Positions 15,912 through 58,919 of a stretch of DNA of 64,000 nt are shown here, piece after piece. The position numbers and the translations under genes are program-made. The stretch is taken from positions 1-64,000 of the forward strand of contig JAFWBM010000004.1 in the NCBI GenBank assembly GCA_017507105.1, in the 5' to 3' direction. Under the pieces are notes generated by a model. That model saw only the letters and a program-made list of their open reading frames with translations, made no database searches and was not told where the DNA came from. Origin of the DNA: Bacteroidaceae bacterium. Its GTDB lineage: Bacteria > Bacteroidota > Bacteroidia > Bacteroidales > Bacteroidaceae. Each line of letters opens with the position of its first letter. The first letter of the stretch is position 1.

Positions 15912-15921
15912 CACAGTGGTT

Positions 15922-34751: not shown

Positions 34752-34772
34752 TGTGTCTGTCTGTTTCCTAAT

Positions 34773-35873: not shown

Positions 35874-35897
35874 AGGCTTATATTTTATTGTTGATAT

Positions 35898-37205
35898 TTA
35901 TTTAAGTTCTTTTGTGTAGCTTTTTATAAGTGTTATTGTAGATTTATCGCTGTCGAAAACCGAATACCATCCTTGTGGCTCATGAGGTGGGTCGCATAGA
36001 AAATCATCTCCTTGCTCCCACACATCACTCTTAGGACGTCCGGTTCCGCCCCATCCCCAGAAGTTGCAGCCTGCAATTACACCATTATTTTGGGCACTCT
36101 GTTTAACTTGCTCAAAGACGTATGCATATAGCTTGTCGCGGCTTTTAACATCTTTTTTTATATCGTTGCTGTTGTCACGGCGGCAATAACCAAACTCTTC
36201 AATGACTATAGGCTTGTTTATATGTTCCCCCATTTTTACGTGCATGTCAATATATTCTCCACTCTTCTTGCATGCAATCTCAATATCATCATCAGGTTTG
36301 TTGCGACTTGCCCATCCCCAATTAAGCGGCCAAATATGTAATGTCAGATAGTCGATATTCGGGTCGCCATGAATGAACTCACATGTATGTTCGTCTGCCT
36401 CACATCCATAATAGCCTTCACTTCCGGTTGATACCAGATGGTTGCTGTCTATCTTCTTTATTATTCTGGCACTTTTGGATAACCACATTGCCATTTTACT
36501 TTGATTCTCTTTGGCAAAAGGTCGTGGTTCATTGCATATCTGCCATGCCATTATTGATGGCTCGTCCTTGTAATATCGTCCTGTAATTGTGTTTTTGCGT
36601 GAGACAATACTCTTTATATGGTTGTAATACATCTCCAATGCGCGTTCTTCACGTACAAAGTTCGATGCATATTTTACATATTCATTATATCCATCGCCTG
36701 ATGCATTGGGTGAGTCGCCATAGCCGCACTCGCGCAGATAGAAACCATATCCGCCGCTCCAATCCCATGAGTTTGTAAGGTATATGACAGCGGTCATGTT
36801 TCGTTTTTCCAGTTCGGCAAGTGTGTAGTCGAGCCCTATGAGGAGTTCTTCGTCAAGTTCTCCGGGGCTCTTTTGCAGACAAGGCACCACACTGTTGGCA
36901 TTTGCACTTCCTGCATCGGCACCGGCTAATATACGCAGGTTCTCAATCCCCATTGATTTAAGGGCATCAAGCTCCTTTGTCAATCGTTTACGGTCACCAG
37001 CCTCAGTTGTAGAGCCAAGTATGGGTGCATACCACATATTGGTACCTATGAAATGGTATGGTTTGCCGTTACGTATCAACTTTGTACCGTCAGTTGTTAT
37101 AAAGCTATTGCTTGAGGAGTCTTTATCCTGGCTTGATGCAGGTATTATGCTGGTTAACAGTGTTATCATTGAAATTATGACTGTTTTCAGTATTTGTACG
37201 TTCAT
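35898..37205 (-). CDS. GH5 beta-mannanase/beta-mannosidase
   Basis: The 435-residue product has a signal peptide (to IIPASSQDK). It shows the GH5 barrel with YHFIGTNMWYAP near the N-terminus, the acid/base Glu in AWQICNEPR and the nucleophile Glu in PIVIEEFGYCRR. The style matches subfamily GH5_7-like mannan enzymes of Bacteroidetes, which cut beta-1,4-mannosidic bonds; GH5_18-like activity on N-glycan cores is an alternative. It is first in the operon GH5-ROK-GH92-GH92, which together would handle beta- and alpha-linked mannose. Only a one-mismatch -7 box (minus TATATTCG at 37235-37242) is seen upstream. Confidence 0.85.
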   Translation of the reverse strand: MNVQILKTVIISMITLLTSIIPASSQDKDSSSNSFITTDGTKLIRNGKPYHFIGTNMWYAPILGSTTEAGDRKRLTKELDALKSMGIENLRILAGADAGSANANSVVPCLQKSPGELDEELLIGLDYTLAELEKRNMTAVIYLTNSWDWSGGYGFYLRECGYGDSPNASGDGYNEYVKYASNFVREERALEMYYNHIKSIVSRKNTITGRYYKDEPSIMAWQICNEPRPFAKENQSKMAMWLSKSARIIKKIDSNHLVSTGSEGYYGCEADEHTCEFIHGDPNIDYLTLHIWPLNWGWASRNKPDDDIEIACKKSGEYIDMHVKMGEHINKPIVIEEFGYCRRDNSNDIKKDVKSRDKLYAYVFEQVKQSAQNNGVIAGCNFWGWGGTGRPKSDVWEQGDDFLCDPPHEPQGWYSVFDSDKSTITLIKSYTKELK

Positions 37206-41120: not shown

Positions 41121-41708
41121 ATGGAAACAGATAACAGATATTTGCGTGTGGCATATACGCTTTATAAACATCGTGATGGTGTGTGCGAGGAGTGGGAAAA
41201 GACAACTCGTGAGCAACCTTTTGCTTTTCTTACCGGTGTAGGATACACATTAGATGCCTTTGAAGAGAGACTGAAAGATCTTAAAAAAGGCGAGGATTTC
41301 GATTTTATGATTCCCAGTGCCGAGGCTTTCGGCGAGTATGAACCTACACATGTTCAGGAACATAGTCGTGAGGATTTTACAATAAATGGCAAGTTCGACT
41401 CAGAGCATATATACGAGGGCAATATCATTGAGATGGTCCGCAATATAGACAAGTCGATTGTGTATGCTGTCGTAAAAGAGGTTACCCCAATGAAAGTGGT
41501 TCTCGATTTTAACCACCCTCTTGCAGGTTGCGATTTGCAGTTCGTCGGTACAGTAATAGAGAATCGTCTTGCCAAAGAGAGTGAACTTAAAAAATTCTAC
41601 GAGCAGTTGCGTGCTGCAGCCAAAGGCTGTGGCGGTTGCAGCGGTTGCGGAGGTGATAGCTGTGGTGAGGGCTGTGGCGAGGGCTGCGAAGGCGGTTGTT
41701 GCCATTAA
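41121..41708 (+). CDS. SlyD-like FKBP peptidyl-prolyl isomerase with Cys-rich tail
   Basis: The 195-residue product is a SlyD-type FKBP: an FKBP half-domain (PFAFLTGVGYTLDAFEERL), an inserted flap (FGEYEPTHVQEHSREDF) and a return strand (MKVVLDFNHPLAGCDLQFVG). Such proteins act as cytosolic folding helpers with metal-binding tails. The tail from residue about 168 has eight Cys and many Gly residues (GCGGCSGCGGD...CCH), a probable nickel or copper site. Follows the dehydrogenase by 11 bp and precedes aroC by 69 bp. Confidence 0.92.
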   Translation: METDNRYLRVAYTLYKHRDGVCEEWEKTTREQPFAFLTGVGYTLDAFEERLKDLKKGEDFDFMIPSAEAFGEYEPTHVQEHSREDFTINGKFDSEHIYEGNIIEMVRNIDKSIVYAVVKEVTPMKVVLDFNHPLAGCDLQFVGTVIENRLAKESELKKFYEQLRAAAKGCGGCSGCGGDSCGEGCGEGCEGGCCH

Positions 41709-42851: not shown

Positions 42852-42872
42852 TGGATATAATATTATAATTGC

Positions 42873-42920
42873 AAAAACAGATAGCCATCCGATTTTCCTC
42901 GGATGGCTATCTGTTTTTTT
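42873..42920 (+). terminator. Intrinsic terminator after aroC
   Basis: A perfect 20-bp stem (42873-42892 with 42899-42918, core CAGATAGCCATCCGA), 6-base loop, with a run of T at the 3' side. Strong. Confidence 0.93.
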
Positions 42921-42958
42921 TGTTTTTTACATTTTGTAATAAAATTTAGTTTAAAATA

Positions 42959-42989
42959 TTTGAACATTAAATTTTAAATCCTATTTTTG
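42959..42989 (+). promoter_or_regulatory. Promoter of the twin FAS1-SusC-SusD operon
   Basis: TTTG (42959-42962), 19 bp spacer, TATTTTTG (42982-42989): full consensus. Start near 42996 with a 69-nt leader. A hairpin (42999-43006 with 43014-43021, ATTTATCT and AGATAAAT) lies near the 5' end of the RNA. No regulator gene is adjacent. Confidence 0.8.
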
Positions 42990-43064
42990 TATGATACGAT
43001 TTATCTGTTTTTTAGATAAATGTAATAGAAATTTATCGGAAATGAATAAAATAAAATAGGAACT

Positions 43065-46000
43065 ATGCGTATGTTAAAACACCGATTAAGGAAGTTGAGT
43101 ATTGCTGCTTTTCTTATCTTTTGCGTCTCCCTGTCGGGTGGAATTCTATCATCATGTGAGGATATCCTAGATGACTATCCACTAGATGACAGCCGTCCAT
43201 CGTGGTTAGGTGAAAGTATATATGAATTTCTTAAAAAGGGAGGTGGTGGCAGTACATATAACAATACTGTTGCTCTTATTGACAAGCTTGAGTATGACAC
43301 GGTACTGTCTCGTACAGGTAGTAAGACCCTTTTTGTTGCCGATGACTCGGCCTATGCAGAGTTCTTTAAGAATAATAAGTGGAATGTAAGTTCTGTAGAT
43401 GAACTTTCTAATTCACAGATGAAAATACTGTTATTCGGTTCCATGCTTGATAATGCCTATCTGCTTGATATGATGTCGAGTCTTCCGGGTAATCCTCCTA
43501 TTGAGAACTCGTGTCTACGTCGTACAACCTCTCTTTCATCGGCCGACTCTATACCATTCTTTGCAACAGGAATGGGGCAAGGACGTGATATTCCTCGAAA
43601 CAATAGTAATTGGGATAAGTTCCGTGCTGAAAAAGGTGGTAATGGCCTTTTGTTGGCACTTGACGGGAATGCTCCAATGATGGTACACTTCCTAAGAGAA
43701 TTCATTAAGGCTAAAGATATAACATCAGAGGATGTGAATATTCTCTTCAATGCTCCTAAAGGTACATCTCGTACTGGTAACGAGGCTTTCGTATATCAGA
43801 ATCAGGTGTTGCCGAACGGTATCAGTTATGATGATTATTCTGACGACACTCTTACTGTTACATGTAAGAATGGATATGTATATAAGATGGATGGTGTGCT
43901 GTTGCCTCCTTCCAATATGGCGCAGGAACTTCGTGAGCATCCCGATACAAAGATATTCAGTTATTTGGTAGATAGGTTCAGTGCACCGGTCTATTCACCT
44001 TCGGTTTCAGAGGAGTATAACTATATAAATAAAACAAAGGATAGTGTCTATGTTCTCCGTTATCTCAACTACTCTGATAACTATCCTTTGCAGAAGGTGG
44101 TTGATAATCGCATTTTGGAGTACAATATCGAGAATGAGTCGGAACTCCTAAAATTCGATCCGGGATGGAACCATATAAAAAACGGTTCTACAGATTCCCG
44201 CTCTGATATGTCGGCTATATATGTTCCTAATGACGAGCATATGTTTCGATTCTTTGGACCCGGTGGCGCAGGAGAGTTTCTTATAGGTCTATACGCATCA
44301 CCTGAGGCTATCGCTAAGATTGATGAATCAAATCCTCTCTCTATCATTGATGCTCTCGACTATATACCAAATCAGATTATAGCATCGTTTGTAAACAACC
44401 TTATGCGTCCTTCGTTTGTAGGATCAGTGCCCAGCAAGTTCCACCTTGTACAGAATGACAGTTTTGAGGAATTAGGTATAAAACCCAATGATGTTCAAGA
44501 GTGTGTTGTTGCAAATAACGGTGTCATATATGTCTTGAACAATGTATTTGGCCCCGATGAGTTCCGTTCTGTTTCTGCGCCTCCTCTTTATATGAGGAAC
44601 ATGACTATAATGAAACAGATGATAGACAAGTTGGGCTACGACTCTTATCTTCTGGCAATGGATGCAGTTTACACTCTTTTGGTACCCGATAATGAATATT
44701 TTATCTATTACGATCCTATATCGGCCGAGACAGAAGTCCCCATTGCTTATAAGTTCTTCTATGATAACAAGAGTGGTGTTATGGCTAATGATACTGTTCC
44801 GGCAGTGAAATTATGGGCCAAGAGATATATCTATGATCCCAAAACATATGAGCTTGGCGATACATTGGAGGGTTATGCAATAGAAGGTCGTGAGGTAATT
44901 ACTAAGCATAATGAGTATACTGCATCCACCCATTTCAAATGGGATAAAGATGGTAATAATGCATCACCTGAGAATTTCTTGTCAAACCGTCTTAAAGACT
45001 TGCTTGAATATCTTATTATAATAGGTAATGTCGAGAACAGCAGTAATAAGTATCATCAGTCCAAGGGTTATGGCTCAATTAGATGCGAGGTTAGAAATAC
45101 AGATGCCAACAATCTGGATATAAAATTCTATGGAGGAGCCAATCTTGAAACAGGAACTGCTGTGAAGGTGGCTGAACGCTATTCTCAGGCTAACGGAGTT
45201 ACATATTGTACTGTTTCAGATAATGATGACAATATGTCATCGGGTATTCCTGCACCGCCTACACAGACTGTGTATCGTAGAATGAATCCCGACAGTTCCA
45301 AAGTTGAGGGTTTCAGGGATTTCTTCAACCTCTGTGTCGGTAATGTGTATGAAGAGGATGGCATTACTCCTCTCTCATCAATAGAGGGAATGCTTGATAT
45401 TATTTATTCAGAGGAGGATAAAGATCTGATAAGCGAAATAGACAGTCTGAACAAGTATTCTGTATTTACATCATTAACTAACTCAAAAACCGGACGTTAT
45501 ATACCACGTGATTTTGCAGTGCCATTCTTCAATACATATCACTATACAGTATATGTACCTACAAACGAATCTCTGCAGAAGGCCTATGATAATGGACTTC
45601 CAACATGGAAAGAGGTTTACAACGAGCTTGTAGATACTTTGGATGGTGTCAGCAAAAGGGGCAAGGCCTTGTCCTATATCCGTCTTATAAATAATTTTGC
45701 GCGTTATCACTTCCAGGATAATTCTCTGTTTGTTGATAATGAGATAAGCGCAGGCAAATATGAGACTTCGGCTATCAACTATGAATCGGATCAGTTCTAT
45801 GAGGTCTCTGTCTCATCGGCAAGTTCGGCAAATGGAACAACTATCGAAATAACAGATGGCCTGAATAACAAGGCAGAGGTGCTTAATACAGCAGGCGGTG
45901 AGGGACAGAGTTGGAATGTTATGGCACGCGATCTGCTTATGTTCTGTCGCTCAGCAGGTGAGATGCAAAATACACCGGCATTTGCAATATATCTTGAAAC

Positions 46001-46460
46001 AGCCTCTTATGCGGTTCTGCATCAGATAAACAATATTCTTGAAAATAAAGGGCTGTATGGATATGACGGTACATATAAGCGTTTTGCAAATGATGGTGAA
46101 CTAGTGGATACCATGAGAGTTTCAGGCATGCAGGGTTCACTTGATGATGGACGCTATCTTGTTGCCGATAAGGGAACTATCTTGGACGAGTTGTCTGATG
46201 GTTCGTATGCCTACAAGCGTATAGGATTCCTTATGAGAAAGACATCGAATGATAACAGAATGAAATGGGAAGAGTATGTATTAAATAGTCGTAATGAGAA
46301 GGTCCTCATAGATAATGATGGTTACCTTCGTAAAGAGGTTCCTAATTACGAAGACGATAAGGTAGTATCATATTCCTATCCGTTTGCAGATGCTGATGGC
46401 AATACAAGCAGTATACCTGTGTTGAAGGTCGATAATGAAGGCAGATTTGTATCAGAATAA
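43065..46460 (+). CDS. Large FAS1 (fasciclin) domain lipoprotein
   Basis: The 1,131-residue product has a lipoprotein signal with SGGILSSC (Cys at 31), so it is probably displayed on the outer membrane. Three or four FAS1-like regions are visible from recurring motifs: residues 65-100 (LEYDTVLSRTGSKTLFVADD), 380-400 (MSAIYVPNDEHMF), 505-550 (ALLVPDNEYF-like stretch YTLLVPDNEYFIYYD) and 815-870 (YHYTVYVPTNESLQKAYDNG). FAS1 domains bind proteins, lipids or glycans in many adhesion proteins. It is the first gene of a six-gene operon and immediately precedes a SusC/SusD pair, the place where surface glycan-binding proteins often sit. The ligand is unknown. Confidence 0.82.
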   Translation: MRMLKHRLRKLSIAAFLIFCVSLSGGILSSCEDILDDYPLDDSRPSWLGESIYEFLKKGGGGSTYNNTVALIDKLEYDTVLSRTGSKTLFVADDSAYAEFFKNNKWNVSSVDELSNSQMKILLFGSMLDNAYLLDMMSSLPGNPPIENSCLRRTTSLSSADSIPFFATGMGQGRDIPRNNSNWDKFRAEKGGNGLLLALDGNAPMMVHFLREFIKAKDITSEDVNILFNAPKGTSRTGNEAFVYQNQVLPNGISYDDYSDDTLTVTCKNGYVYKMDGVLLPPSNMAQELREHPDTKIFSYLVDRFSAPVYSPSVSEEYNYINKTKDSVYVLRYLNYSDNYPLQKVVDNRILEYNIENESELLKFDPGWNHIKNGSTDSRSDMSAIYVPNDEHMFRFFGPGGAGEFLIGLYASPEAIAKIDESNPLSIIDALDYIPNQIIASFVNNLMRPSFVGSVPSKFHLVQNDSFEELGIKPNDVQECVVANNGVIYVLNNVFGPDEFRSVSAPPLYMRNMTIMKQMIDKLGYDSYLLAMDAVYTLLVPDNEYFIYYDPISAETEVPIAYKFFYDNKSGVMANDTVPAVKLWAKRYIYDPKTYELGDTLEGYAIEGREVITKHNEYTASTHFKWDKDGNNASPENFLSNRLKDLLEYLIIIGNVENSSNKYHQSKGYGSIRCEVRNTDANNLDIKFYGGANLETGTAVKVAERYSQANGVTYCTVSDNDDNMSSGIPAPPTQTVYRRMNPDSSKVEGFRDFFNLCVGNVYEEDGITPLSSIEGMLDIIYSEEDKDLISEIDSLNKYSVFTSLTNSKTGRYIPRDFAVPFFNTYHYTVYVPTNESLQKAYDNGLPTWKEVYNELVDTLDGVSKRGKALSYIRLINNFARYHFQDNSLFVDNEISAGKYETSAINYESDQFYEVSVSSASSANGTTIEITDGLNNKAEVLNTAGGEGQSWNVMARDLLMFCRSAGEMQNTPAFAIYLETASYAVLHQINNILENKGLYGYDGTYKRFANDGELVDTMRVSGMQGSLDDGRYLVADKGTILDELSDGSYAYKRIGFLMRKTSNDNRMKWEEYVLNSRNEKVLIDNDGYLRKEVPNYEDDKVVSYSYPFADADGNTSSIPVLKVDNEGRFVSE

Positions 46461-46471
46461 AGAATGAAGTC

Positions 46472-49400
46472 ATGATAAAGGTAAAACAGCTATTGATGCT
46501 TGCACTATGTTGCATTGCGACACTTTCGGCTTTTGCGCAAAAGAGTGCACGTATTTCGGGTAATGTGTTTTCTGCATCCGAAGGCCCGTTAATGATGGTA
46601 AATGTCACCGAACGTGACAAGAGCGACCGTATTATAGAGGCTGCTGTAACGGATATGGAGGGTAACTTCTCGATGGTGGTAAAGAATACAAGCAACCGTC
46701 TAGAGATTTCGTATATAGGTTACAAGACTGTAAAACTTGATATAGGCTCACGTACGGTATTCAATGTGGAACTTGTAGAGGATAACCTTATAGAGGAGGT
46801 TGTTATTACTGCAAAGTCGCGTACTCGAAACGGAGCTCTTGAGATTCTCGATCGAGAGGTATCTTCTGCAACACAGAAATTTGAAATGAGCGAGATGGAA
46901 GGTCTCTCGTTTGCCTCTGTCGATGAGGCTTTGCAGGGACAGATTGCCGGTCTTGATGTCGTCTTTTCGAGCGGCGACTTAGGCTCGGGGACACAGATGC
47001 GTCTGCGTGGTACCTCAAGTATTTCGGGTAACGCCGAGCCTCTTATTGTTGTGAACGATAATATATGGGAAATGCCTCAGGAAGAGGTCAGTTCTTTTGA
47101 TTTTACCAATCTCAATAACGAACAGTTCTCGGAGTTGCTTTCTGTAAACCCCGATGATATAGAGTCAATCGAGGTTCTTAAGGATGCTGCCTCTTGTGCC
47201 ATCTGGGGTTCACGTGGTGCAAACGGTGTTATCAAAATAAAGACTAAACGCGGTCATAGAGGTAAGACTCGTGTAAACTTTTCTATTAAGTTCAAAGATA
47301 AATGGATTCCTAAGGGACTTAATCTTCTCAATGGTGATGACTATACGATGTTGTTGAAGGAGTCGCATTTCAACCCCTCACAGACACAGACTGATATTCC
47401 TGAGATAAATTACGATCCTAATTTTAATCAGTACCAGAACTTTAATGAGAATACCGATTGGGTAGATGCCGTTACCAAGCATGGTTATCGCAATGAATAT
47501 AGTGTGAACCTTACCGGAGGTGGTGAGAAAGCTACTTTCCGAATTTCGGGTGCATACACAAACGAGACCGGTACAATTATTCAGCAGTATCTAGAGACCT
47601 ATTCTTCACGTCTTGCACTCGATTATTATGTGTCTGATCGCATTAAGGTGATGACCGAATTTGCATTCTCATATACGAACAATGAGAAGAACTATGATGA
47701 CCTTTTGGCTATTTCTCAGAAGATTATGCCTAATATGAGCATCTGGTATCAGAATCAAGAGGGTGTCAATACTCCCGATTACTATAAGATGCTTTCTAAT
47801 GCAAGCAGCACTTTTAATGATGACCAAAAGAAATTCAAGAATCCGATAGCGCTTGGTAATCTTGCACAGAACGATCAGGAGAGCTATAGTGTAAGTCCTC
47901 AAATAACCCTTGAGTATAACCTCTTGGGCTTGGATGATGATGAGACCCAGTTGAAATATCGTGGGCTTGTATATATGAATGCGGCAACGCTCTCCAACTC
48001 GAAATTCCTTCCGGCTTCACTTACAAATAGTGACTGGACCGGTGAAGAGGTAAATACGGCTTCGGTGTACGACAGCAAGTCATTGCAGTTCACAACACGT
48101 CATCAATTGGTGTTCACTCCTTATCTTGGTAATCCCGACCACTATCTGACAATGTCGGGACAGTTCGAAATGAACACAAGTAACAGTACAACTCAGAATC
48201 AGGAAACATACGGACTTCCAAATGGATTCAACAGTACAACTATTGGCTCGTATCTTTCAAAAGCAACGACAACAAAAGGACAATCGAGAAGCTTGAACTT
48301 CACATATCAGTCGCACTACTCATACAAGTCTAAATATGTGCTTGGTATTGCTGTACGTGGTGAGGGACATACGCAGTTTGGTGAAGACCGTAAGTGGACT
48401 GTTTTCCCATCAGTGTCGGGACGTTGGAATATTTCAGATGAGTCTTGGATGCAATGGGCAAAACCGGTTCTCTCTATGTTATCAATACGTCCCAGCTATG
48501 GTTGGGCCGGAAACGTTCCCGGACAAGAGTATCTCATGTATACAAAATATACCCCCGGAGGAAGCTATCTTGGTATAACAGGTTTCAATCAGGGCGGAAT
48601 ACGTTTGAGCGATTTGCGTGCATCGGATAAACGTGAGTTCAACATTGGTTCCGACTTTGGTCTTTTTGAGGATCTTATTTCTGGTTCATTCAACTACTAT
48701 CTCAGTGTAACAAAAGACCAGTTGATGCAAAATTATAGTATTCCTACCTCTACCGGCCATGAAAAGTTGGCATATAAGAATACAGGTGCAGTTGAAAACT
48801 CGGGATGGGAGTTCAACATTAATGTCAATAGAGTGAAAATAGCAAAGGACTTTACATTTAGCGCCTATTTCAACGTCGGTCAGAACTTCAATGAAGTGAC
48901 CGAGATGGAGGCTAGTGTGCTTAAGAACAATAACCCTGATTACGATTTCAAGAACGGTTCATATCTAGGTCGTATTCAGATAGGTAATCCCTTGGCGTCT
49001 ATATACGGATTCCGATACAAGGGCGTGTATCGTTACAGCTATAAGAACTGGAGAAAGGCTTTGGATGAAGAGGCTAATGGACGTGACGGCTCATGTCCCA
49101 TCGTGCGTGATGCAAACGGTAACGTAGTTTATCAAGCAGATGGTACTCCTAAACCAATGGTCTTTAATTATGATTTGGAAACAGGTAATTATACATACCG
49201 CTTCAATGGCGGAGATGCTATATACGAGGATATTAACCACGATGGAAATATAAATGAATTGGATCTGGTATATCTGGGCAATTCTAACCCTAAGGCTCAA
49301 GGAGGTTTTGGATTCACATTCAACTACAAAAGACTCTCTTTAAAGACTAATTTCTCATATCGTTGGGATGTGGATGTGATAAACAGTGCCCGCATGGATG

Positions 49401-49777
49401 TTGAGAATATGTTTGGTAACAACAACCAGAGTGATGCTGTTAACTGGCGCTGGCGTAAAGAGGGAGATATTACAATAATACCTCGTGCCCTTAAGAATCA
49501 TGGATATAACTACTTGGGTAGTGACAGATTTGTCGAGGATGCCTCTTATCTGCGTCTCTCGTACATGCAATTATCATATAGCTTTGACAAGAAAGTGCTT
49601 AAGAAGTTTGGTCTAGAGTCGCTTACTATGTATGCGTCAGCCGACAACCTCTTCTTCCTGACAAAATATACAGGTCTTGACCCGGAGGTCTCTGCCGGTG
49701 CTTGGGGACGTGCATATGATGGAGCCAAGACACCGCGTTCTCGCTCATATACTCTCTCACTATCTGTTGGATTCTAA
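46472..49777 (+). CDS. SusC/RagA family TonB-dependent outer-membrane transporter (first)
   Basis: The 1,101-residue product has a signal peptide (ending LSAFAQ), a carboxypeptidase-regulatory-like beta-sandwich (about 26-100, ARISGNVFSASEGPLMMVNV), a TonB box-like EEVVITA near 112, a plug domain with DDIESIEVLKDAASCAIWGS near 230, and a C-terminal beta-barrel ending in LSLSVGF with the terminal Phe. It imports large substrates with its SusD lid, powered by TonB. It starts 11 bp after the FAS1 gene and ends 18 bp before its SusD. No enzyme genes are in the operon. Confidence 0.95.
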   Translation: MIKVKQLLMLALCCIATLSAFAQKSARISGNVFSASEGPLMMVNVTERDKSDRIIEAAVTDMEGNFSMVVKNTSNRLEISYIGYKTVKLDIGSRTVFNVELVEDNLIEEVVITAKSRTRNGALEILDREVSSATQKFEMSEMEGLSFASVDEALQGQIAGLDVVFSSGDLGSGTQMRLRGTSSISGNAEPLIVVNDNIWEMPQEEVSSFDFTNLNNEQFSELLSVNPDDIESIEVLKDAASCAIWGSRGANGVIKIKTKRGHRGKTRVNFSIKFKDKWIPKGLNLLNGDDYTMLLKESHFNPSQTQTDIPEINYDPNFNQYQNFNENTDWVDAVTKHGYRNEYSVNLTGGGEKATFRISGAYTNETGTIIQQYLETYSSRLALDYYVSDRIKVMTEFAFSYTNNEKNYDDLLAISQKIMPNMSIWYQNQEGVNTPDYYKMLSNASSTFNDDQKKFKNPIALGNLAQNDQESYSVSPQITLEYNLLGLDDDETQLKYRGLVYMNAATLSNSKFLPASLTNSDWTGEEVNTASVYDSKSLQFTTRHQLVFTPYLGNPDHYLTMSGQFEMNTSNSTTQNQETYGLPNGFNSTTIGSYLSKATTTKGQSRSLNFTYQSHYSYKSKYVLGIAVRGEGHTQFGEDRKWTVFPSVSGRWNISDESWMQWAKPVLSMLSIRPSYGWAGNVPGQEYLMYTKYTPGGSYLGITGFNQGGIRLSDLRASDKREFNIGSDFGLFEDLISGSFNYYLSVTKDQLMQNYSIPTSTGHEKLAYKNTGAVENSGWEFNINVNRVKIAKDFTFSAYFNVGQNFNEVTEMEASVLKNNNPDYDFKNGSYLGRIQIGNPLASIYGFRYKGVYRYSYKNWRKALDEEANGRDGSCPIVRDANGNVVYQADGTPKPMVFNYDLETGNYTYRFNGGDAIYEDINHDGNINELDLVYLGNSNPKAQGGFGFTFNYKRLSLKTNFSYRWDVDVINSARMDVENMFGNNNQSDAVNWRWRKEGDITIIPRALKNHGYNYLGSDRFVEDASYLRLSYMQLSYSFDKKVLKKFGLESLTMYASADNLFFLTKYTGLDPEVSAGAWGRAYDGAKTPRSRSYTLSLSVGF

Positions 49778-49795
49778 TAAATAAAGTTGGTTATT

Positions 49796-51574
49796 ATGAA
49801 AAAGATTAAAAATATATTCAGAAAGAGTCTCTCTGCAGTTCTATTTTCAGTTGCACTCCTGCTGACTTCGTGTACCGACTATCTTACAATATATCCGGCC
49901 AATGATATAATACATGAGAATTTCTGGCAGACAGCTGATGATGTGAACGGTATGTTGGCTACAAGCTATTTGCAATTGTTGAGCAAAGAGTCTATTGAGC
50001 GTATGGTCATATGGGGCGAGTTAAGAGGCGACAATATATGTGTCAGAAAAAATAACTCCCAAATAGCATACAAACATATTGTAGAGGGTAACCTTCAGGA
50101 TGATAATGAATATTGCAAGTGGGCTGTCTTTTATCGTGCGATAAATTATGCAAACATGGTACTGGAGTTTGCCCCATTGGTTCCTCAGCGCGACCCTAAT
50201 TTTACTCAAGGTGACCTTGATATTGTTATGGGCGAGATGTATGCGATGCGTGCATTGGCACATTTTTACCTTGTACGCACATTCCGCGATATACCGCTCT
50301 CTTATAAGGCCAGTTTGAATGACAGTGAATTAGGTGAGTATCCTCAAGTTCATCCTTGTGTTGCGTTGGACAGTATCATGAGTGACCTTGATAAGGCCGA
50401 TGCTCTTGTGATGCGTACCGGAGGTTTTCCGAATAGTGTAAATCCCGATTTCAACTACTCGCGTATTACGCGCGATGCAGTTCGTGCTATGAAGGCCGAT
50501 GTCAATCTGTGGCGTGCAGCTTTTGCTACATACTATCAAGGTGATGATAGTTTGAACGTTGGTAACCCCGACGATTATTATCGTCAGGTAATAGCATGCA
50601 GTGACTCTGTCATAAATTCATACGTGTCGAGAATTTCCAAATTCTATAAAGAACACAAGGTAAAGATTGAAGCAGGTCCTGGCACAGAGAATCCTTATTA
50701 CCTATCCAACAACAGTATAAGCAAAGTTGAACCGAAACGTTCTTCGGTATATGACAACTTATTTGGTTCCGGCAAGTATTTTACATCCAGCACGGCGATA
50801 TCATCACGAGGAGAGATTCTCTTCGAACTTAAGTTTGATGAGACTAGAAACGTGAACACAGCCATCAGCGAGCTTTATGGCAACGCAAAAGACAAACTTG
50901 GCGCCATGTGTGTCAATAGAAATTATGTAAGGAATACAACCGATAATATATACAAGAAGAGTGACCTGCGTGTATATTCATATACAGATATAGAGAATCT
51001 GGGTGCAGAAAATGTCAATGAGTCGGGTGTTCCCGAAGATATAGGTATAGCCAAGTATACATATGAGAATTCTCCTGCATATAATAGTCTTCAGCGTTCA
51101 AAGGATAATTTCGATGCTAATTGGGTAATATATCGTCTTACAGATGTGATGCTTATGAAGGCCGAGGCCCTTGTGCATCTCTCATCTGCAGGTAGCAAAG
51201 AATTTGGCGAGGCATTTAAACTTGTAAAGACGATAAACTACCGTTCTTTATCAAGTGAGGCAGATTCTTTAAGGATTGCAAATTATCCGAATAAAGAGAG
51301 TATGGCGCAGCTTGTTCTTGACGAGCGCGTAAGGGAATTGGCATTTGAGGGTAAAAGATGGTACGACCTTGTACGTGTGGCATTGCGCGATAAGTCAACA
51401 GCAAATATCCTTTTCGTTGCCGATAAGGTTGAAGGTGCCTCAAGTGCAGTACGTAAAAAGATGCAGTCTATACATACAATTTTCTTTCCTATAGCAGAGA
51501 GTGAGATGAATGTTAACAGTCTGCTTGTGCAGAATCCTGCTTACGAGACCTCTTCCTCAATAGAACAGAATTAA
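49796..51574 (+). CDS. SusD/RagB family surface lipoprotein (first)
   Basis: The 592-residue product has a lipoprotein signal (LLLTSC), an N-terminal SusD helical region (IYPANDIIHENFWQTADDVN), the segment GELRGDNICVR, and the typical MYAMRALAHFYLVRTFRDIP, followed by the C-terminal VLDERVRELAFEGKRWYDLV and IFFPIAESEMNVN. SusD proteins cap the SusC barrel and bind the substrate. The frame extends to TTG at 49787; the ATG at 49796 is chosen. Partner of the SusC at 46472. Confidence 0.95.
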   Translation: MKKIKNIFRKSLSAVLFSVALLLTSCTDYLTIYPANDIIHENFWQTADDVNGMLATSYLQLLSKESIERMVIWGELRGDNICVRKNNSQIAYKHIVEGNLQDDNEYCKWAVFYRAINYANMVLEFAPLVPQRDPNFTQGDLDIVMGEMYAMRALAHFYLVRTFRDIPLSYKASLNDSELGEYPQVHPCVALDSIMSDLDKADALVMRTGGFPNSVNPDFNYSRITRDAVRAMKADVNLWRAAFATYYQGDDSLNVGNPDDYYRQVIACSDSVINSYVSRISKFYKEHKVKIEAGPGTENPYYLSNNSISKVEPKRSSVYDNLFGSGKYFTSSTAISSRGEILFELKFDETRNVNTAISELYGNAKDKLGAMCVNRNYVRNTTDNIYKKSDLRVYSYTDIENLGAENVNESGVPEDIGIAKYTYENSPAYNSLQRSKDNFDANWVIYRLTDVMLMKAEALVHLSSAGSKEFGEAFKLVKTINYRSLSSEADSLRIANYPNKESMAQLVLDERVRELAFEGKRWYDLVRVALRDKSTANILFVADKVEGASSAVRKKMQSIHTIFFPIAESEMNVNSLLVQNPAYETSSSIEQN

Positions 51575-51624
51575 CAGCATAAGCCCGTGAGAATAGAAAC
51601 GTTCTTGCATTAAATTATAAAGAT

Positions 51625-53445
51625 ATGAAAAAGTCATTAAGCTATAAGTATATAACAAGTTTCTCCATTGTTGCGCTTCTGTTTATTGCCACAGGATGTA
51701 ACGATGAGTGGGATAACCACTACAAGGATCATGGTGTGAACTCCAAGTTGACATTGCTCGAGGCTATGAAAATGGACAAGAATAATGAATTCAGTGATTT
51801 CCTCCAGATAACAGAGGCTTGCGGTATAAACGACTCTTTGCTGACTGCATCGCGTGTATACACTTTGTGGGCACCTGTCAATGGCACCTTTAATAAAGAT
51901 TCTTTGTTGAATTTAATAGAGACAGGTAAGAGGAGTGATGTTGTCGAGTGTTTTATATTGGGACACATGACCGAGTATCTGCACCCTGCAACCGGTGTGA
52001 AGGAAAAGAACACTCTTGTTTTGCTGAATACCAAAAAGGCCGATTTTGTAGGTAAGGATGGTGAGTATAAGTTTGACGGAATACCCCTTGTCATGGAGAG
52101 TTCCAATCAGCGTGTACGTAACGGTATATTGCATAAGATAGATGGTTCTGTCGAGTATCAAATGAATCTGTGGCAGTATTTAGCAAAAGATTCGCGTATA
52201 GATTCATTGGCCAATTATCTGCGTTCATATGATATCCGCACATTTAACGAGCATGCCAGTATACAGGGCCCCACTGTCAATGGTGAAATAACATTTATCG
52301 ACTCGGTATTCAATACCACAAACTTTTGGCTCACTACTCCTGGTGGAGCACGTGAGACATCCGGTTTCGGAAACATATCCGATGAGGACTCTCTCTATAC
52401 AATGTTTGCCTTTACAAATGATGTATGGAACGAGATGGTACCAACGGTTACCGAGTATTTCAATTTTTATGTAGGTAATGAAGATGATAGGTATAAGTTC
52501 GACTCTATACAATATGCATGGTCTCGTAAGATGTTGTGCAACTATCTTGTATTCAGTAATAGAGAACAAAGACATCTTTCCAAAGAGGTTGCAGATAAGA
52601 ATCTGCTTGCCAACTTCAGATATAGAGCCAATGGATTCCAGACAAAGACTAACAGCGTCCGTTATACTTTTCCAAAAGAGCAGTTAATGAGAGGTGTTAT
52701 TGATTCTGTTGAGATGTCAAATGGTAAACTATATATAACAGATAGTTTCAACTATTCGCCCCTAGTTCTGTGGCACGATACAATAAAGGTCGAAGGTGAG
52801 GTTGGTGGCAAGTATATCAAATATGACAATACAAATACATATATTCAGACTCTGCGTGTGACAAACTCCACCAAACACGACTCTATTCAAGGCGAGGTAT
52901 CAAACAACACCTATCTATTGGCCGGACGTGTTCAAGGCAAACATGCTCAAGTTAAGTATACTATCCCAAACACTCTCTCGAACAGTAAGTATCGTATAGG
53001 AGTGGTAATAGTGCCACCGCATATTACGAACAAGACAATGTTGCCTGAGCAGGTAAAAAAGAGCAATATCGGCGCAGTCATTGAGACAAGGGATGCTAAC
53101 GGTAAAGTAGTCTCTATATATGATACATCAAGCAATATCACTTTACCTATCCTAAATGGTATAAAAGGTGGTTTGCAGAATGATGCAACGCGTATTGATA
53201 CAGTATATCTATACGATATAGCGCTTGATAGAAAAAATAACTATAAGGTGGATTTGCGTGAGCCTGCTGTTTTTAATTTCAACTATTGTGAACGAGGCTT
53301 GGCAGTAGATTCAATAAAGACAACATTGACCCTCAAAAGCAATATAACACAAGACAGCCAGTATAATACATGGGAGCAATCGTTACGCATAGATTGTATT
53401 ATACTAGAACCTATTATTGAAAATGTTGCCGATACCCAGAAATAG
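51625..53445 (+). CDS. FAS1 (fasciclin) domain lipoprotein (second)
   Basis: The 606-residue product has a lipoprotein signal (LLFIATGC, Cys at 25) and begins with a FAS1-like domain: FSDFLQITEACGINDSLL, YTLWAPVNGTFNKDSLL and the closing RNGILHKIDG, about residues 45-170. Residues 175-330 look like a second such domain. The C-terminal half is beta-rich with no family I recognise. It starts a second FAS1-SusC-SusD block 50 bp after the first SusD, in the same orientation. It is about half the size of the first FAS1 protein and probably binds a ligand at the cell surface. Confidence 0.8.
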   Translation: MKKSLSYKYITSFSIVALLFIATGCNDEWDNHYKDHGVNSKLTLLEAMKMDKNNEFSDFLQITEACGINDSLLTASRVYTLWAPVNGTFNKDSLLNLIETGKRSDVVECFILGHMTEYLHPATGVKEKNTLVLLNTKKADFVGKDGEYKFDGIPLVMESSNQRVRNGILHKIDGSVEYQMNLWQYLAKDSRIDSLANYLRSYDIRTFNEHASIQGPTVNGEITFIDSVFNTTNFWLTTPGGARETSGFGNISDEDSLYTMFAFTNDVWNEMVPTVTEYFNFYVGNEDDRYKFDSIQYAWSRKMLCNYLVFSNREQRHLSKEVADKNLLANFRYRANGFQTKTNSVRYTFPKEQLMRGVIDSVEMSNGKLYITDSFNYSPLVLWHDTIKVEGEVGGKYIKYDNTNTYIQTLRVTNSTKHDSIQGEVSNNTYLLAGRVQGKHAQVKYTIPNTLSNSKYRIGVVIVPPHITNKTMLPEQVKKSNIGAVIETRDANGKVVSIYDTSSNITLPILNGIKGGLQNDATRIDTVYLYDIALDRKNNYKVDLREPAVFNFNYCERGLAVDSIKTTLTLKSNITQDSQYNTWEQSLRIDCIILEPIIENVADTQK

Positions 53446-53480
53446 AGTAAGGGGCAAGAATCAAATTGTACTACGAAAAA

Positions 53481-56400
53481 ATGAAAGAAACTATGTATAT
53501 GCGACAAATTATGCAATCGATTATGGCATTTGCGCTAATGCTCTCATTTGCCATTCCTGCAAACGCTACAGTTATGAGCCATGCCGAAACAACCGATTCT
53601 CTGAAGAGTGGGGCAGCCTCTGATGTACAAACACGTTTGGTTACAGGTACTGTATACGATGCAGCAACGAATATACCGCTTCCTGGTGTCCGTGTGCAGG
53701 CAACCGGTCATTCGAACATAACTACAATGACCAATGCCGATGGAAAGTATAAACTTACAGTTCCCTCTTATGTGACTTTGTTGAGTTTCTCTACCCCTGA
53801 GTACCGTCTGGTGCAGCGCCCCCTGTTAGGTAAAGATGTGTTAAATGCACGTCTCTACAAAGACGATTTCTCCGAGAACTACAGCGACGATATAAAACTT
53901 ACGGCAGGTGCAACTTTCGATAATGGCATCAGTAGTGCCATAACAGTCGATTCCGAGATCCAGAATCGCTTGGGTGCACAAGTGCGTTCTGTTACGCGTT
54001 CGGGAACTCCCACCATAGGTAATTTTATGCTCATCCGAGGTATAAACTCGATAAATGCCAGTACAGCTCCATTGGTTGTTGTTGACGGTATTATATACGA
54101 CCTCCAAGAGAACTATGGTTCACTGCATATGGGTATGTTCAATAACATTTTGGCCGGTATTGATGTAAATGATATCGAGAATGTAGAGGTCCTTACAAGC
54201 GGGACTGCTATCTATGGAGCTCGTGCTGCAAATGGTGTGATATTGATTAATACCAAGCGCGGAAAGAGCATGGCGACTCGCATTACAGCCAATATATATG
54301 GCAATGTGACAATGGCGCCCAAACTTACCGACATGATGAAGGCAGAGCAGTATCGTACGTATGCCAACGAGATGATAGCCACAATGAATACAACACAACG
54401 TGACTTCAGTTTCTTACGTACCGATTCTGATTTCCCTTACTATAATATGTACCATAATGAGACTGATTGGTCAAAAGAGGTATATCGTGAGGCGCTTACC
54501 CAGAATTATAAGATTAATGTCGAGGGAGGTGATGATATTGCCATGTATAACTTTTCGTTAGGTTATACAATGGGCGAGAGTACACTGAAGGCAAATAACT
54601 TTGACCGTCTGAATATACGTTTCAATTCTGATGTCTCATTAGCAAAGAATCTTACCACTCGTTTCGATATATTTTACACTCGTGTGGCACGCGAATTGCT
54701 CGATGATGGCATTATGGAGAATAGTAAATCTTTCCCTTACTCTTCTCCTGGATTTATCGCAATGGTGAAGTCTCCTTTCTTGAGCCCCTATATGTTCTCT
54801 CGTGACGGTAAAAAGACTGCGGCTTATGATGAGTCGGATAACTTTGCCTGGGGTATAGATAAAGATGTTAATTATGCACAGGATAACAATTCGCTTTATA
54901 ATCCGCTTACCATAATAAATGTAGGTTCGGGTGATAACATGAACGATCAGGAGTATACACACTTTGGCCTTACAGTTGTCCCCGAACTGAAGTTAGGAGA
55001 TTTTAAAATCTCGGAACTCTTCAGCTACTCTTTGCACCGTATGAGTGAGAGATATTATCTGCCATATGCGACTGCTAAGACTGAGCGTCAGTTCTATGCA
55101 GAGAATTTGGGCCGTATAGGTAACTTCATATCTTCTTCTTTTGGAAAAGAGAGTTCTTTGACAAGCGATACCAGAGTAAATTGGTCTAAGGTACTGAATG
55201 CACACAGCCTTGATATATATGCCGGTTTCCGTTATACACGTTTCTCTTTCGACTCGAATTTCCTCTCATGTGCCAATTCGGGTAATGATAAGGCTACTAC
55301 TATAAGCTCAAACTATGATTACCTTACCGATACCGGTGACGATAATATGTGGACCAACTTGTCGTGGTATATGAATCTGGACTACAATTACAAAACAAAA
55401 TATTTCCTAAAAGCAGCCCTCTCGCTAGAGACATCATCACGTTTTGGTAAAGAGGCAGAGGATGGTATCTCCATTGGTGGTGTAAGTTGGGGCCTCTTCC
55501 CCTCTGTAGCTGCTGCATGGCTTATATCCTCAGAGTCGTGGTTCAATGTGAAACCTATAAACTCCCTCAAGCTGCGTGCCGGATTTGATGTTGTGGGTAA
55601 CGATGCTATCGACTACTATGCTGCACAAAGTTTTATGCAGGCTGTAAAGTTCCAGAATCGATATATGGGTATTCAACTTGGCAATGTCGAGAATGAGAGT
55701 GTTAAATGGGAGACTACATCACGCTTCAACGTGGGTTTGGATGCCATCTTGTTCGATAATAGGATAGCTGTGTCGCTCGATTGGTACAAGGCCAAGACTG
55801 TAGATTTGCTTGTTCCTAAAGTTTACGACTATGTAACAGGTATGGATACCTATTGGAGTAATGGTGGTGAGCTTGAGAATATAGGATTTGAAGCAGCTGT
55901 TACTGCACGTCTTGTAAATACTCCTAAGTTCAGTTGGGAGTTTGGAGTCTCTGCCGGTCATTACAAGAATGAGATTACAGCACTTGACGAAGAGGTTGAT
56001 CCTACAAAAGTATATGGTGCAGAGATGCTTACCCGTGTAGGTGAGCCTATAGGTGTATTCTATGGTTATAGGACCGCCGGTGTGATATCCACTATAGAGG
56101 AGGCCGATAACTTGGGGCTTTATCAAAAGGATGCAGCCGGAAATGATGTCTATTTCCAAGCAGGTGACATAAAGTTTGTAGACTATACAGGAGAGGGCGA
56201 GATAAGTGAGGCCGACAAGGTTATAATAGGTGATCCTAATCCCGATCTCTATGGAAACATCTTTACAAAGCTTTCATATGGGAATTGGACCTTGAATATG
56301 GGCTTCAACTACTCTTTGGGTAATGATGTATACAACTATTACCGTTCTTTGCTCGAGGGTGGAAATAACTTCTTTAACCAATCTGTTGCAATGTTGAACC

Positions 56401-56729
56401 GTTGGACTATAGATGAACAGATAACAGATATGCCGCGTATTGCATATGGTGATCCTGTTGGGAATGCGCGTTTCTCGGACAGATGGATTGAGGATGGCTC
56501 CTACTTACGTTTGAAGAGTGTGCAGCTGCAGTATAAGTTCCCCATCGTAAGTAATTGGTTACAAGGATTGACTGTTTGGTGTGCTGCCGAGAATCTGCTT
56601 ACATGGACAAAATATTTAGGTAACGACCCCGAATTCTCTGTTAATAATAAAATTCTTTATCAGGGTGTCGATGCGGGTCTTTTGCCACAAAGCCGCAGTT
56701 TCCATCTTGGTGTGAAGATTAATCTGTAA
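53481..56729 (+). CDS. SusC/RagA family TonB-dependent outer-membrane transporter (second)
   Basis: The 1,082-residue product has a signal peptide (to IPANATVMSH), a carboxypeptidase-like regulatory domain (about 50-115, TGTVYDAATNIPLPGVRVQA), a plug domain with VDGIIYDLQENYG and DIENVEVLTSGTAIYGARAA, and a barrel ending FHLGVKINL. The usual EEVVVTG TonB box cannot be found between the two domains; the linker reads DFSENYSDDIKLTAG instead. The frame extends to TTG at 53466; the ATG at 53481 (MKETMYMRQ) fits a start, with ATGs at 53493 and 53499 as alternatives. Confidence 0.92.
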   Translation: MKETMYMRQIMQSIMAFALMLSFAIPANATVMSHAETTDSLKSGAASDVQTRLVTGTVYDAATNIPLPGVRVQATGHSNITTMTNADGKYKLTVPSYVTLLSFSTPEYRLVQRPLLGKDVLNARLYKDDFSENYSDDIKLTAGATFDNGISSAITVDSEIQNRLGAQVRSVTRSGTPTIGNFMLIRGINSINASTAPLVVVDGIIYDLQENYGSLHMGMFNNILAGIDVNDIENVEVLTSGTAIYGARAANGVILINTKRGKSMATRITANIYGNVTMAPKLTDMMKAEQYRTYANEMIATMNTTQRDFSFLRTDSDFPYYNMYHNETDWSKEVYREALTQNYKINVEGGDDIAMYNFSLGYTMGESTLKANNFDRLNIRFNSDVSLAKNLTTRFDIFYTRVARELLDDGIMENSKSFPYSSPGFIAMVKSPFLSPYMFSRDGKKTAAYDESDNFAWGIDKDVNYAQDNNSLYNPLTIINVGSGDNMNDQEYTHFGLTVVPELKLGDFKISELFSYSLHRMSERYYLPYATAKTERQFYAENLGRIGNFISSSFGKESSLTSDTRVNWSKVLNAHSLDIYAGFRYTRFSFDSNFLSCANSGNDKATTISSNYDYLTDTGDDNMWTNLSWYMNLDYNYKTKYFLKAALSLETSSRFGKEAEDGISIGGVSWGLFPSVAAAWLISSESWFNVKPINSLKLRAGFDVVGNDAIDYYAAQSFMQAVKFQNRYMGIQLGNVENESVKWETTSRFNVGLDAILFDNRIAVSLDWYKAKTVDLLVPKVYDYVTGMDTYWSNGGELENIGFEAAVTARLVNTPKFSWEFGVSAGHYKNEITALDEEVDPTKVYGAEMLTRVGEPIGVFYGYRTAGVISTIEEADNLGLYQKDAAGNDVYFQAGDIKFVDYTGEGEISEADKVIIGDPNPDLYGNIFTKLSYGNWTLNMGFNYSLGNDVYNYYRSLLEGGNNFFNQSVAMLNRWTIDEQITDMPRIAYGDPVGNARFSDRWIEDGSYLRLKSVQLQYKFPIVSNWLQGLTVWCAAENLLTWTKYLGNDPEFSVNNKILYQGVDAGLLPQSRSFHLGVKINL

Positions 56730-56788
56730 TACAATCTTTACAGCAGTAGTAAAATAGAGATATCAGAAGTCTGAAAATTGATAGAACG

Positions 56789-58840
56789 ATGAAAAAGAAT
56801 CTTATTTATACATTATGTGTGATGTTAAGCGGAGCTGTTCTTTTCAGTTCATGCGAAGATATGTTGGAGGTTGACTCGGAGCGCATTGATGTGGAGATGG
56901 GGGATCTCACACTCAATGACTCGGTCTACTCGGTCTTGGGAATCCTTAAAAGCGTACAAGGCATTGCCGATCGTACAGTGTTGCTTGGCGAGTTGCGTGG
57001 CGACTTGGTCGCTGCCAATCCCGGAAAGGCTGTCTATGATGTCCAGAGTATCATGGATTTCAATTTCGACTCCGAGAATCCATATCTGGCCGTAAAGGAT
57101 TACTATTCAATTATAAATAACTGTAATATATTCCTAGCAAGAGTTGATACGAGCCTTGAGCGTAGTGGTGACAAGCTTTTAATGGCCGAGTATGTGGCAG
57201 TGAAGAGTGTACGTGCGTGGACCTATCTTCAACTAGCCATAAACTACGGTAGTGTACCTTATTATACAGATCCTATACTTACACATGCCGAGGCAGAGGA
57301 GGTGATGAACCGTCCTAAGAAATCGCGTGACGAGATAGTATCTCTATTGATTGAAGAGTTGACACCCTTTGAAGACCCAAGAAAATACCCTATGCCCGAT
57401 TGGTCGGGTATACAGACCGGTACGCCTCGTACTTCAATAACAACATCTCAACTTTTTGTCCCCATCAGATATCTGCTTGGAGAACTTCATCTGTGGCGTG
57501 GTGCGCATGGAGATTATAGGATTGCTTCAAACTATTTCTTCAAGTCAATAACAGATACTCCTATTGGAACAACAGCCTCGACTCGCATATTCTCAGATGG
57601 AGATGCTTATGTGGAGTTCTCGGATTACGACGAGGATTATGAGGACTATCTTGATGTATATAATTCTATATTCCGTTCTTCATATGCTGTAAGAAATTTC
57701 ACAGCTTTGACTGTGATACCTATGGAGACGACGACATCTACCGGAACCATATCTTATCTCAGTGATATCTTCTTCCCCGAGGTTGAAGGTGCTGCACAGG
57801 TTTCTGCTTCGCCCGGTTATGTCTCATTGAGCAATAGACAAGCCTATCTGATTTACGACCATGATAGAAAAGTTGGGCCTATATATAATCCAAACAAGGA
57901 TATGCTGGTTGGTGATTTACGTAGGTATACAGTTACCGGTTCGCAGAGAGACTTTACAACTGAAGAGGAGTATAATAATATAATATTGAAATTGAACCAG
58001 GGTAACACTTCATATTTGGATAATGTCCCATATGCCTTGTACTCAGGTCGTACCAACTTTGTACAGATTGTGCGCGACATGCATTTGTATGCACGCTTTG
58101 CCGAAGCACTGATAGGACTATCTGCCGAAGAAAACTGTCCCGATGCACTTGTAATGGCTATGGAGACATTAAAGAGTGGATTGAAGAAGGATTATAAATT
58201 GCGTACAAATCTAAGTTTTGTAGATAAGGAGGTTATGATAGACTCTTTGGGTAATATAACAGAGGATACAGAATTGGCTGTCGATACAATTGTAGTTCAG
58301 GATCCTGTCTACAATGAGATAATAAGATATAATTTCTTATCCAACAGATTCGAGGATAATATCGGCCTGCACTCACGTGGCTCAGGTAACGGTAAGCATA
58401 ACAAATATTATTCGTTGAGCGATACCTGCGTAGCGCGTTACTATGGTCTTGTAAAGGAAGATAGCGATTCACTCTTTACAACAAAAAGAACGCTTACTGA
58501 AGAGGACTATTATAGATATGTGAATGATATACTGCTCGATGAACTTGCTCTTGAATTCTGCTTCGAAGGTAATCGTTTTGGCGACCTTATACGTTTTGCC
58601 AAGAGAGCCGAGAAGGATGGATTTACCGATTGGAAAGATATTCTTGCAAAACGTGTCGCAGGACGTTCATTCAATAACAGTGTAACATATTATGAAGAGG
58701 GTTACGAAATGGATGATGCACTCTATAGATTGTTATCTTCTGACGAAAGCAAATGGTATCTGCCATTGCCCGATACAAGTGAGGCCTCTGAGGAGAAACC
58801 TGAGACTGATTCTGAAATAGAACAAGATCCAGGAGTGTAA
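56789..58840 (+). CDS. SusD/RagB family surface lipoprotein (second)
   Basis: The 683-residue product has a lipoprotein signal (GAVLFSSC, Cys at 22) and SusD features: LLGELRGDLVAANPG, the YVAVKSVRAWTYLQLAINYG helix, and at the C-terminus LLDELALEFCFEGNRFGDLI and WYLPLPD. It ends in an acidic tail (SEASEEKPETDSEIEQDP). It is longer than typical SusD proteins by about 100 residues. It shares GELRGD with the first SusD. Last gene of the operon; a strong terminator follows. Confidence 0.93.
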   Translation: MKKNLIYTLCVMLSGAVLFSSCEDMLEVDSERIDVEMGDLTLNDSVYSVLGILKSVQGIADRTVLLGELRGDLVAANPGKAVYDVQSIMDFNFDSENPYLAVKDYYSIINNCNIFLARVDTSLERSGDKLLMAEYVAVKSVRAWTYLQLAINYGSVPYYTDPILTHAEAEEVMNRPKKSRDEIVSLLIEELTPFEDPRKYPMPDWSGIQTGTPRTSITTSQLFVPIRYLLGELHLWRGAHGDYRIASNYFFKSITDTPIGTTASTRIFSDGDAYVEFSDYDEDYEDYLDVYNSIFRSSYAVRNFTALTVIPMETTTSTGTISYLSDIFFPEVEGAAQVSASPGYVSLSNRQAYLIYDHDRKVGPIYNPNKDMLVGDLRRYTVTGSQRDFTTEEEYNNIILKLNQGNTSYLDNVPYALYSGRTNFVQIVRDMHLYARFAEALIGLSAEENCPDALVMAMETLKSGLKKDYKLRTNLSFVDKEVMIDSLGNITEDTELAVDTIVVQDPVYNEIIRYNFLSNRFEDNIGLHSRGSGNGKHNKYYSLSDTCVARYYGLVKEDSDSLFTTKRTLTEEDYYRYVNDILLDELALEFCFEGNRFGDLIRFAKRAEKDGFTDWKDILAKRVAGRSFNNSVTYYEEGYEMDDALYRLLSSDESKWYLPLPDTSEASEEKPETDSEIEQDPGV

Positions 58841-58858
58841 TAGTAATACCCGAATATA

Positions 58859-58919
58859 TATAAACATAGCAGATGCACCAACATCTTGGTGCATCTGCTA
58901 TGTTTATAGTCTTTTTTTT
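58859..58919 (+). terminator. Intrinsic terminator of the twin FAS1-SusCD operon
   Basis: A 23-bp perfect stem (58859-58881 with 58886-58908, core AGCAGATGCACCAA), 4-base loop, then GTC and eight T. Marks the end of a 15.8-kb transcription unit. Confidence 0.93.

Follow-up and report, generated by a model that had tools for sequence, protein, structure and literature searches.

SusCD pairs are a main route of glycan uptake in gut and environmental Bacteroidota, and their partner lipoproteins help decide what is caught. The common plan of SusC-SusD utilisomes with SusE/SusF is a TonB-dependent barrel, a lid and sugar-binding surface lipoproteins. The RagAB peptide importer is likewise a SusCD-type pair without enzymes; it consists of a single pair and has no FAS1 protein. 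FAS1 is best known as an adhesion domain in animals, for example in periostin and TGFBIp. In the rhamnogalacturonan-I (RG-I) locus of Bacteroides thetaiotaomicron (BT4145-BT4183), two SusCD complexes, BT4164/BT4165 and BT4168/BT4169, are found together with the surface glycan-binding protein BT4167 and, next in number, the surface lyase BT4170 (PMC8002723). Here we analyse a predicted six-gene operon with two SusCD pairs and two fasciclin (FAS1) lipoproteins, located in a 64,000-nucleotide stretch of a Bacteroidaceae genome (GenBank assembly GCA_017507105.1, contig JAFWBM010000004.1), hereafter the window. We conclude that the operon is probably an enzyme-free form of a conserved outer-membrane uptake cassette of Bacteroidota, which we call "twin FAS1-SusCD".

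The window covers bases 1-64000 of a 131,358-base contig (C18; G, C and L numbers are our handles for genomes, contigs and loci) in a 2.1-Mb assembly of 52 contigs that is 93.6% complete, and the nearest named relatives of the genome are ruminant gut Bacteroidaceae assemblies. Open reading frame (ORF) calls and family profile searches place six co-directional genes in the order FAS1A-SusC1-SusD1-FAS1B-SusC2-SusD2, with intergenic gaps of about 11-60 bp, and agree with a preliminary description of this DNA on gene number, order and limits. The operon and its boundaries are as follows:

42959..42989, plus strand: Bacteroidetes-type promoter, exact TTTG-N19-TAnnTTTG (pattern scan; a motif we take to be of this type)
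43065..46460, plus strand: FAS1A, FAS1 lipoprotein of 1131 residues (ORF; Fasciclin, 34.1 bits)
46472..49777, plus strand: SusC1, TonB-dependent transporter (TIGR04056, 651.9 bits)
about 49796..51574, plus strand: SusD1, lipoprotein (SusD_RagB, PF07980, 90.7 bits)
51625..53445, plus strand: FAS1B, lipoprotein of 606 residues (ORF; Fasciclin, 27.9 bits; domain make-up from a model)
about 53481..56729, plus strand: SusC2, TonB-dependent transporter (TIGR04056, 584.1 bits)
56789..58840, plus strand: SusD2, lipoprotein (SusD_RagB, PF07980, 25.9 bits)
58860..58907, plus strand: strong terminator-like hairpin closing the operon (20-bp stem)

With cut-offs of 22 bits for Fasciclin (PF02469), 368.25 for TIGR04056 and 23.1 for PF07980, SusC1 and SusC2 belong to the SusC/RagA family, SusD1 and SusD2 to the SusD/RagB family, and the FAS1 proteins to the FAS1 family, by score as well as by fold; SusD2 stays under the cut-off of a second SusD family, PF14322 (24.8 versus 27). 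Each SusCD pair is preceded by a large FAS1 lipoprotein, as had been proposed. A custom-profile scan of the window revealed no further SusC, SusD or FAS1 gene of these kinds. ORFs and family scans gave no enzyme gene among the six, and no dedicated sensor, whether a hybrid two-component system (HTCS) or an ECF/anti-sigma pair, was found between promoter and terminator, so that the unit has neither the carbohydrate-active enzyme nor the sensor that mark a polysaccharide utilization locus (PUL).

Comparison with relatives reveals that the full cassette has seven genes, FAS1A-SusC1-SusD1-FAS1C-FAS1B-SusC2-SusD2, and is found in several Bacteroidota families and orders; the window operon is one state of this cassette, a six-gene form without FAS1C. 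Matches to FAS1A turned up in 94 of 151 family genomes and in 41 of 44 genus genomes, and FAS1B was likewise matched in 41 of the 44. All 39 loci fetched from relatives keep FAS1A-SusC1-SusD1-[X]-FAS1B-SusC2-SusD2 (FAS1A is truncated at an edge in 4 and absent at a contig end in 1). X is a third FAS1 protein of about 700 residues, FAS1C, an identity based on nine compared copies and on a Pfam scan of four operon copies plus the window genome's own copy. Fifteen loci have one copy and 4 have two; the other 20 have none, and 16 of these belong to the window's genus. A FAS1A search of the named collection was limited to the best 80 of at least 546 relatives. Although these loci were picked on FAS1A alone, SusC1 follows in 78 and the remaining two end there; 71 extend to FAS1B and 64 to SusC2 without any break in order, and the 9 that fall short of FAS1B break off at most 254 bases from the edge of the locus. 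Among the named loci, 56 carry FAS1C at its position, whereas 19 that extend to FAS1B are without it. The cassette records include Prevotella, Paraprevotella, Alloprevotella, Dysgonomonas and Candidatus Symbiothrix. Named and G loci overlap (10 SusC1 sequences are common to both, and L141 and L142 share one), and near relatives among the counted loci are not independent. The 30 best-matching Fasciclin loci of the family, which were not selected for the cassette, all score best as FAS1C, with SusD1 directly upstream in 29.

At greater distance, a phylum draw yielded FAS1A in 8 of 395 genomes, namely the window's own genome and seven of other orders, and all eight loci of these seven carry FAS1A-SusC1-SusD1-FAS1C-FAS1B in order. 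An order draw yielded FAS1B in 45 of 295 genomes, many through partial matches; among the matches listed, 20 loci were taken, of which 17 have the cassette or the part of it covered, and in three (L283, L287 and L288) it is not present. These proportions, with many partial matches, indicate a cassette of wide distribution that many genomes nevertheless lack. A variant order is seen in L276 (502-4938 and 18501-19901), with FAS1A downstream of SusD2; in this locus of another family, a DUF6057-lookalike and an 854-residue protein stand before SusC1. Taken together, the order kept in 39 of 39 fetched relatives and unbroken in the best 80 of at least 546 named loci bears out the earlier suggestion of a defined system type, and the 41 of 44 genus genomes matched by FAS1A and by FAS1B speak against chance. 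The twin FAS1-SusC-SusD order is indeed conserved, but in other genera seven genes are the norm, and the window operon lacks one of them, FAS1C.

The two halves of the cassette are not copies of each other. In a FastTree phylogeny of 54 rows, SusC1 and SusC2, which travel together, fall on opposite sides of a single fully supported branch, indicating that the pair is old; on this tree they are separate old lineages. SusD1 and SusD2 are barely similar. The branch split and the scant SusD similarity rule out a recent tandem duplication of one block, and the block repeat should not be read as one; that the two blocks differ in sequence is borne out by the strong divergence of both SusC and SusD. 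The closest solved SusC to SusC1 is 8aa4, and both SusCs are nearer to the solved homologues 8aa4 and 5t3r, presumably glycan importers, than to RagA. RagAB thus differs from the cassette in being farther than 8aa4 from both window SusCs and in being a single pair without FAS1, where the cassette has two pairs with FAS1.

The SusC1 tree also places the window in a 43-row clade (support 100) in which, besides the window, 35 rows have a PD40 gene directly upstream of FAS1A and 7 do not have enough flank. Including L146, for which there is no SusC1 sequence, PD40 is directly upstream of FAS1A in 36 loci, all with the CINCH motif, and DUF6057 lies ahead of PD40 in 21. One example, L134:6293-9753, encodes a DUF6057 membrane protein and a PD40 beta-propeller lipoprotein with the CINCH motif. 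Two loci with enough flank are exceptions: the window, where both genes are absent upstream of FAS1A (42851-43065), and L137, a short contig from the genus whose 1355 upstream bases gave no PD40 match. PD40 was matched in 41 of 44 genus genomes; in the window genome, neither PD40 nor DUF6057 was matched.

Structure models of FAS1B and of a relative's FAS1C each contain two FAS1 domains and a CBM35/CBM6-like domain, which in FAS1B is C-terminal. The best fold matches are TGFBIp and periostin, with AstaP and an NDH-1 subunit in the same lists. A lipobox was found in 109 of 113 FAS1A, 100 of 106 FAS1B and 81 of 84 FAS1C rows, and the residue at +3 after the lipobox cysteine is acidic in 79%, 93% and 72% of them, respectively, but also in 93% of SusD2. 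The predicted CBM-like domains fit surface glycan-binding proteins and, together with the acidic residues, agree with the idea that the FAS1 proteins may take the place of SusE/F; on these models they look like candidate surface glycan-binding lipoproteins in that role. Periostin and TGFBIp have the FAS1 fold and tandem domains in common with them, whereas the cassette proteins are lipoproteins of bacteria, carry a CBM-like domain in addition and are tightly linked to transporters. Unlike SusE/F utilisomes, the cassette keeps two different SusCD pairs together with three FAS1-based lipoproteins. We therefore favour the twin FAS1-SusCD uptake cassette on the basis of gene content, order, conservation and a FAS1C copy elsewhere in the genome, with the modelled domains of FAS1B and a relative's FAS1C pointing in the same direction. 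In such a machine, the FAS1 lipoproteins would stand on the cell surface, their CBM-like heads would hold the glycan and their FAS1 domains would dock to two different SusC-SusD barrels, which would take up the oligosaccharide in TonB-driven steps.

The gene missing from the operon is not missing from the genome, in which a lone FAS1C lies at C51:92398-94506. FAS1C matches, each of which may be a gene piece, are numerous in six genomes (27 in G151, 25 in G160, 22 in G177, 13 each in G170 and G175, and 10 in G153), and number 0-3 in each of the other 38 genus genomes. Four loci of G177 and G151 (L241, L242, L243 and L244) hold tandem arrays of 3-5 detached FAS1C genes. Despite these arrays, each genome has about one FAS1A and one FAS1B; no FAS1A match was obtained in G151 and G175, both of which are fragmented assemblies. 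The six FAS1C-rich genomes are exactly the six with a GH28 match, but they probably form one clade, so that this coincidence is not independent evidence. We compared 15 array copies from G177, 6 from G151 and 4 from G153, plus G170, without G160 and G175. At first-FAS1 identities of 0.55-0.65, 0.65-0.75 and 0.75-0.85, the identity of the CBM-like part in array versus non-array pairs is 0.42 versus 0.56, 0.43 versus 0.63 and 0.55 versus 0.70, and it is near equal in the lowest bin (0.38 versus 0.41); pairs share sequences, and the non-array set includes two-FAS1C loci. By this measure, divergence in the sampled arrays appears to have been quicker in the CBM-like head than in the first FAS1 domain; another possible cause of the difference is gene conversion acting on the FAS1 part. 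A tentative interpretation, to which we give limited credence, is a plug-in receptor system, in which the FAS1 pair would serve as a conserved plug for docking, with a variable ligand head at the CBM-like end, one twin SusCD port being served by a detached FAS1-CBM library; just as tentatively, the window species with its one detached FAS1C might then represent the minimal set. Around detached copies, the FAS1C of L250 adjoins NadE and ClpB, which give no hint of a ligand; a 736-residue TonB-dependent receptor (L133:14792-16999) is divergent to the lone FAS1C, and ORFs of about this length adjoin FAS1C in L252 and L256.

Clues to the ligand come from enzyme genes near the cassette in other lineages. 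Three distant relatives have FAS1 proteins within RG-I loci: in G436 (C13) the cassette lies with GH88, GH95, a GDSL esterase, PL22, GH106, GH2, SASA, GH28 and PL11; in G192 with GH115, SASA and GH28, plus matches to GH106, GH88/105 and PL22; and in G604 with a PL11 carrying a secretion tail, GH35 and an HTCS, plus matches to GH28, GH88/105 and an esterase. An HTCS is nearby in two relatives (L278 and G604), and in the G218 locus an FGGY kinase and a fused aldolase-dehydrogenase presumably serve rhamnose catabolism. Nine upstream proteins of relatives, eight of them from other clades, were scanned. GH51 domains were seen in one, CBM_4_9 in another and a lectin match slightly under the cut-off in a third; a further one is a PL11 lyase whose secretion tail scores below cut-off, and three had no match. 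Five large downstream proteins include one with CBM_4_9, one with a glycosyl hydrolase core above cut-off and one tRNA synthetase; ricin-type matches among them are below cut-off. The absence of an enzyme thus holds for the window operon but not as a property of the type, as some relatives have it within RG-I loci or adjoining GH51, PL11 and CBM-bearing proteins. Such contexts are a minority: ligand-context probe counts are 4/8, 0/17, 13/75 and 0/44, with a background of 2/21, and the flank Pfam tallies cover 113 of 135 proteins of at least 330 residues and the first 25 of 85 and first 25 of 90 families.

The B. thetaiotaomicron RG-I locus has, by number, two genes between its SusCD pairs, one of them BT4167, the same spacing as in SusC1-SusD1-FAS1C-FAS1B-SusC2-SusD2 (the FAS1 content of BT4163, BT4166 and BT4167 was not checked), and some cassette relatives carry the same enzyme kinds. 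The window differs in that its operon includes no RG-I enzyme, a single gene separates the pairs, and the genome gave no GH28 match. GH28 was matched in 6 of 44 genus genomes, and its absence from the window's assembly (93.6% complete; PL9, PL11 and GH106 were not searched genome-wide) sets this species apart from a B. theta-type RG-I PUL and led us to reject RG-I backbone use as its likely job. In some lineages, the load is probably RG-I pieces. In the window's genus, mostly without GH28, the ligand has probably shifted or is pre-cut, and the load is more likely pre-cut oligosaccharides that other microbes release, or glycans degraded by enzymes whose genes lie elsewhere. The peptide, siderophore or matrix ligands named in the preliminary description find little support.

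Two further features lie upstream of the operon:

30310..37205, minus strand: GH92, GH92, ROK and GH5 genes, possible enzyme partners in trans (family matches)
42873..42918, plus strand: terminator-like hairpin closing the upstream aroC (20-bp stem and T run)

The glycoside hydrolase cluster, about 6 kb upstream on the other strand, raises the question of whether the operon is an alpha-mannoside/N-glycan importer feeding these enzymes. The window has no other SusC or SusD to serve them, GH5 was matched in 13 and GH92 in 7 of the 10-kb upstream flanks of 16 genus loci (L134-L149), and GH92 pairs lie near the cassette in L293 and L300, of one distant genus. However, etf, acyl-CoA dehydrogenase, FKBP and aroC genes stand between the oppositely oriented cluster and the operon, and the whole stretch is syntenic throughout, so that the linkage may be passive; other genera of the clade have no GH92 match near the cassette, and the GH92 genes of L293 and L300 have their own SusCD. 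We consider this reading unlikely. An importer of peptides or glycopeptides of the RagAB kind would agree with the lack of a glycan enzyme in the window operon, with the M28 peptidase and amidase adjoining the G335 locus and with the HExxH stretch in a downstream protein in L230, but the closer relation of the SusCs to 8aa4 and 5t3r than to RagA, the CBM-like heads and the pectin gene context of some distant members weigh against it and make it rather improbable.

The strong differences between SusC1 and SusC2 and between SusD1 and SusD2 might also mean that each block is an importer in its own right with its own ligand, the two being adjacent by chance, in line with the view taken in the preliminary description. 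Both blocks nevertheless occur together across families and orders, and FAS1B is present in every FAS1A-chosen locus that is long enough, which leaves little probability for a chance association. That the best fold matches are TGFBIp and periostin could point instead to adhesion, with FAS1 proteins binding host or partner surfaces and the SusCD pairs being secondary; given the strict linkage to two transporter pairs, and a FAS1 fold that is also found in the non-adhesive AstaP and NDH-1 subunit, we regard this as very improbable.

The remaining features of the window concern its signals and other genes. The promoter pattern occurs 8 times versus 1.8 expected, a count reached in none of 100 shuffles, and one of the seven other sites (52045-52075) falls within FAS1B; terminator-like sites in the region number 19 versus 11.5 in shuffles. 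A FKBP-type isomerase at 41121-41708 has a Cys/Gly-rich, possibly metal-binding tail. The window also encodes a SprA_N protein (8562-15914) and a response regulator with a PglZ domain (62593-63975), the latter presumably PorX-like; we take the two to be parts or control of type IX secretion.

In the portions available of open-licence PMC articles, our search found no link of fasciclin proteins to SusCD: fasciclin appears only in a reference-list match in PMC10199937 and 0 times in PMC11784079, PMC7661554 is unrelated, and PMC5061871 and PMC3243724 make no such link. The cassette is real and conserved, a type of SusCD system that has been under-described; the window holds its bare form of six genes, and the seventh has a copy at another place in the genome. 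Two fixed SusCD lineages with three FAS1 lipoproteins would define a class of uptake machine hidden by the name "fasciclin domain protein". In some lineages the cassette could mark pectin-type uptake at the sequence level, and it could show how the port can persist in a genus even as the enzymes are lost. If the heads in the FAS1C arrays are interchangeable, the arrays would offer a testable model for the acquisition of new ligands by one transporter.

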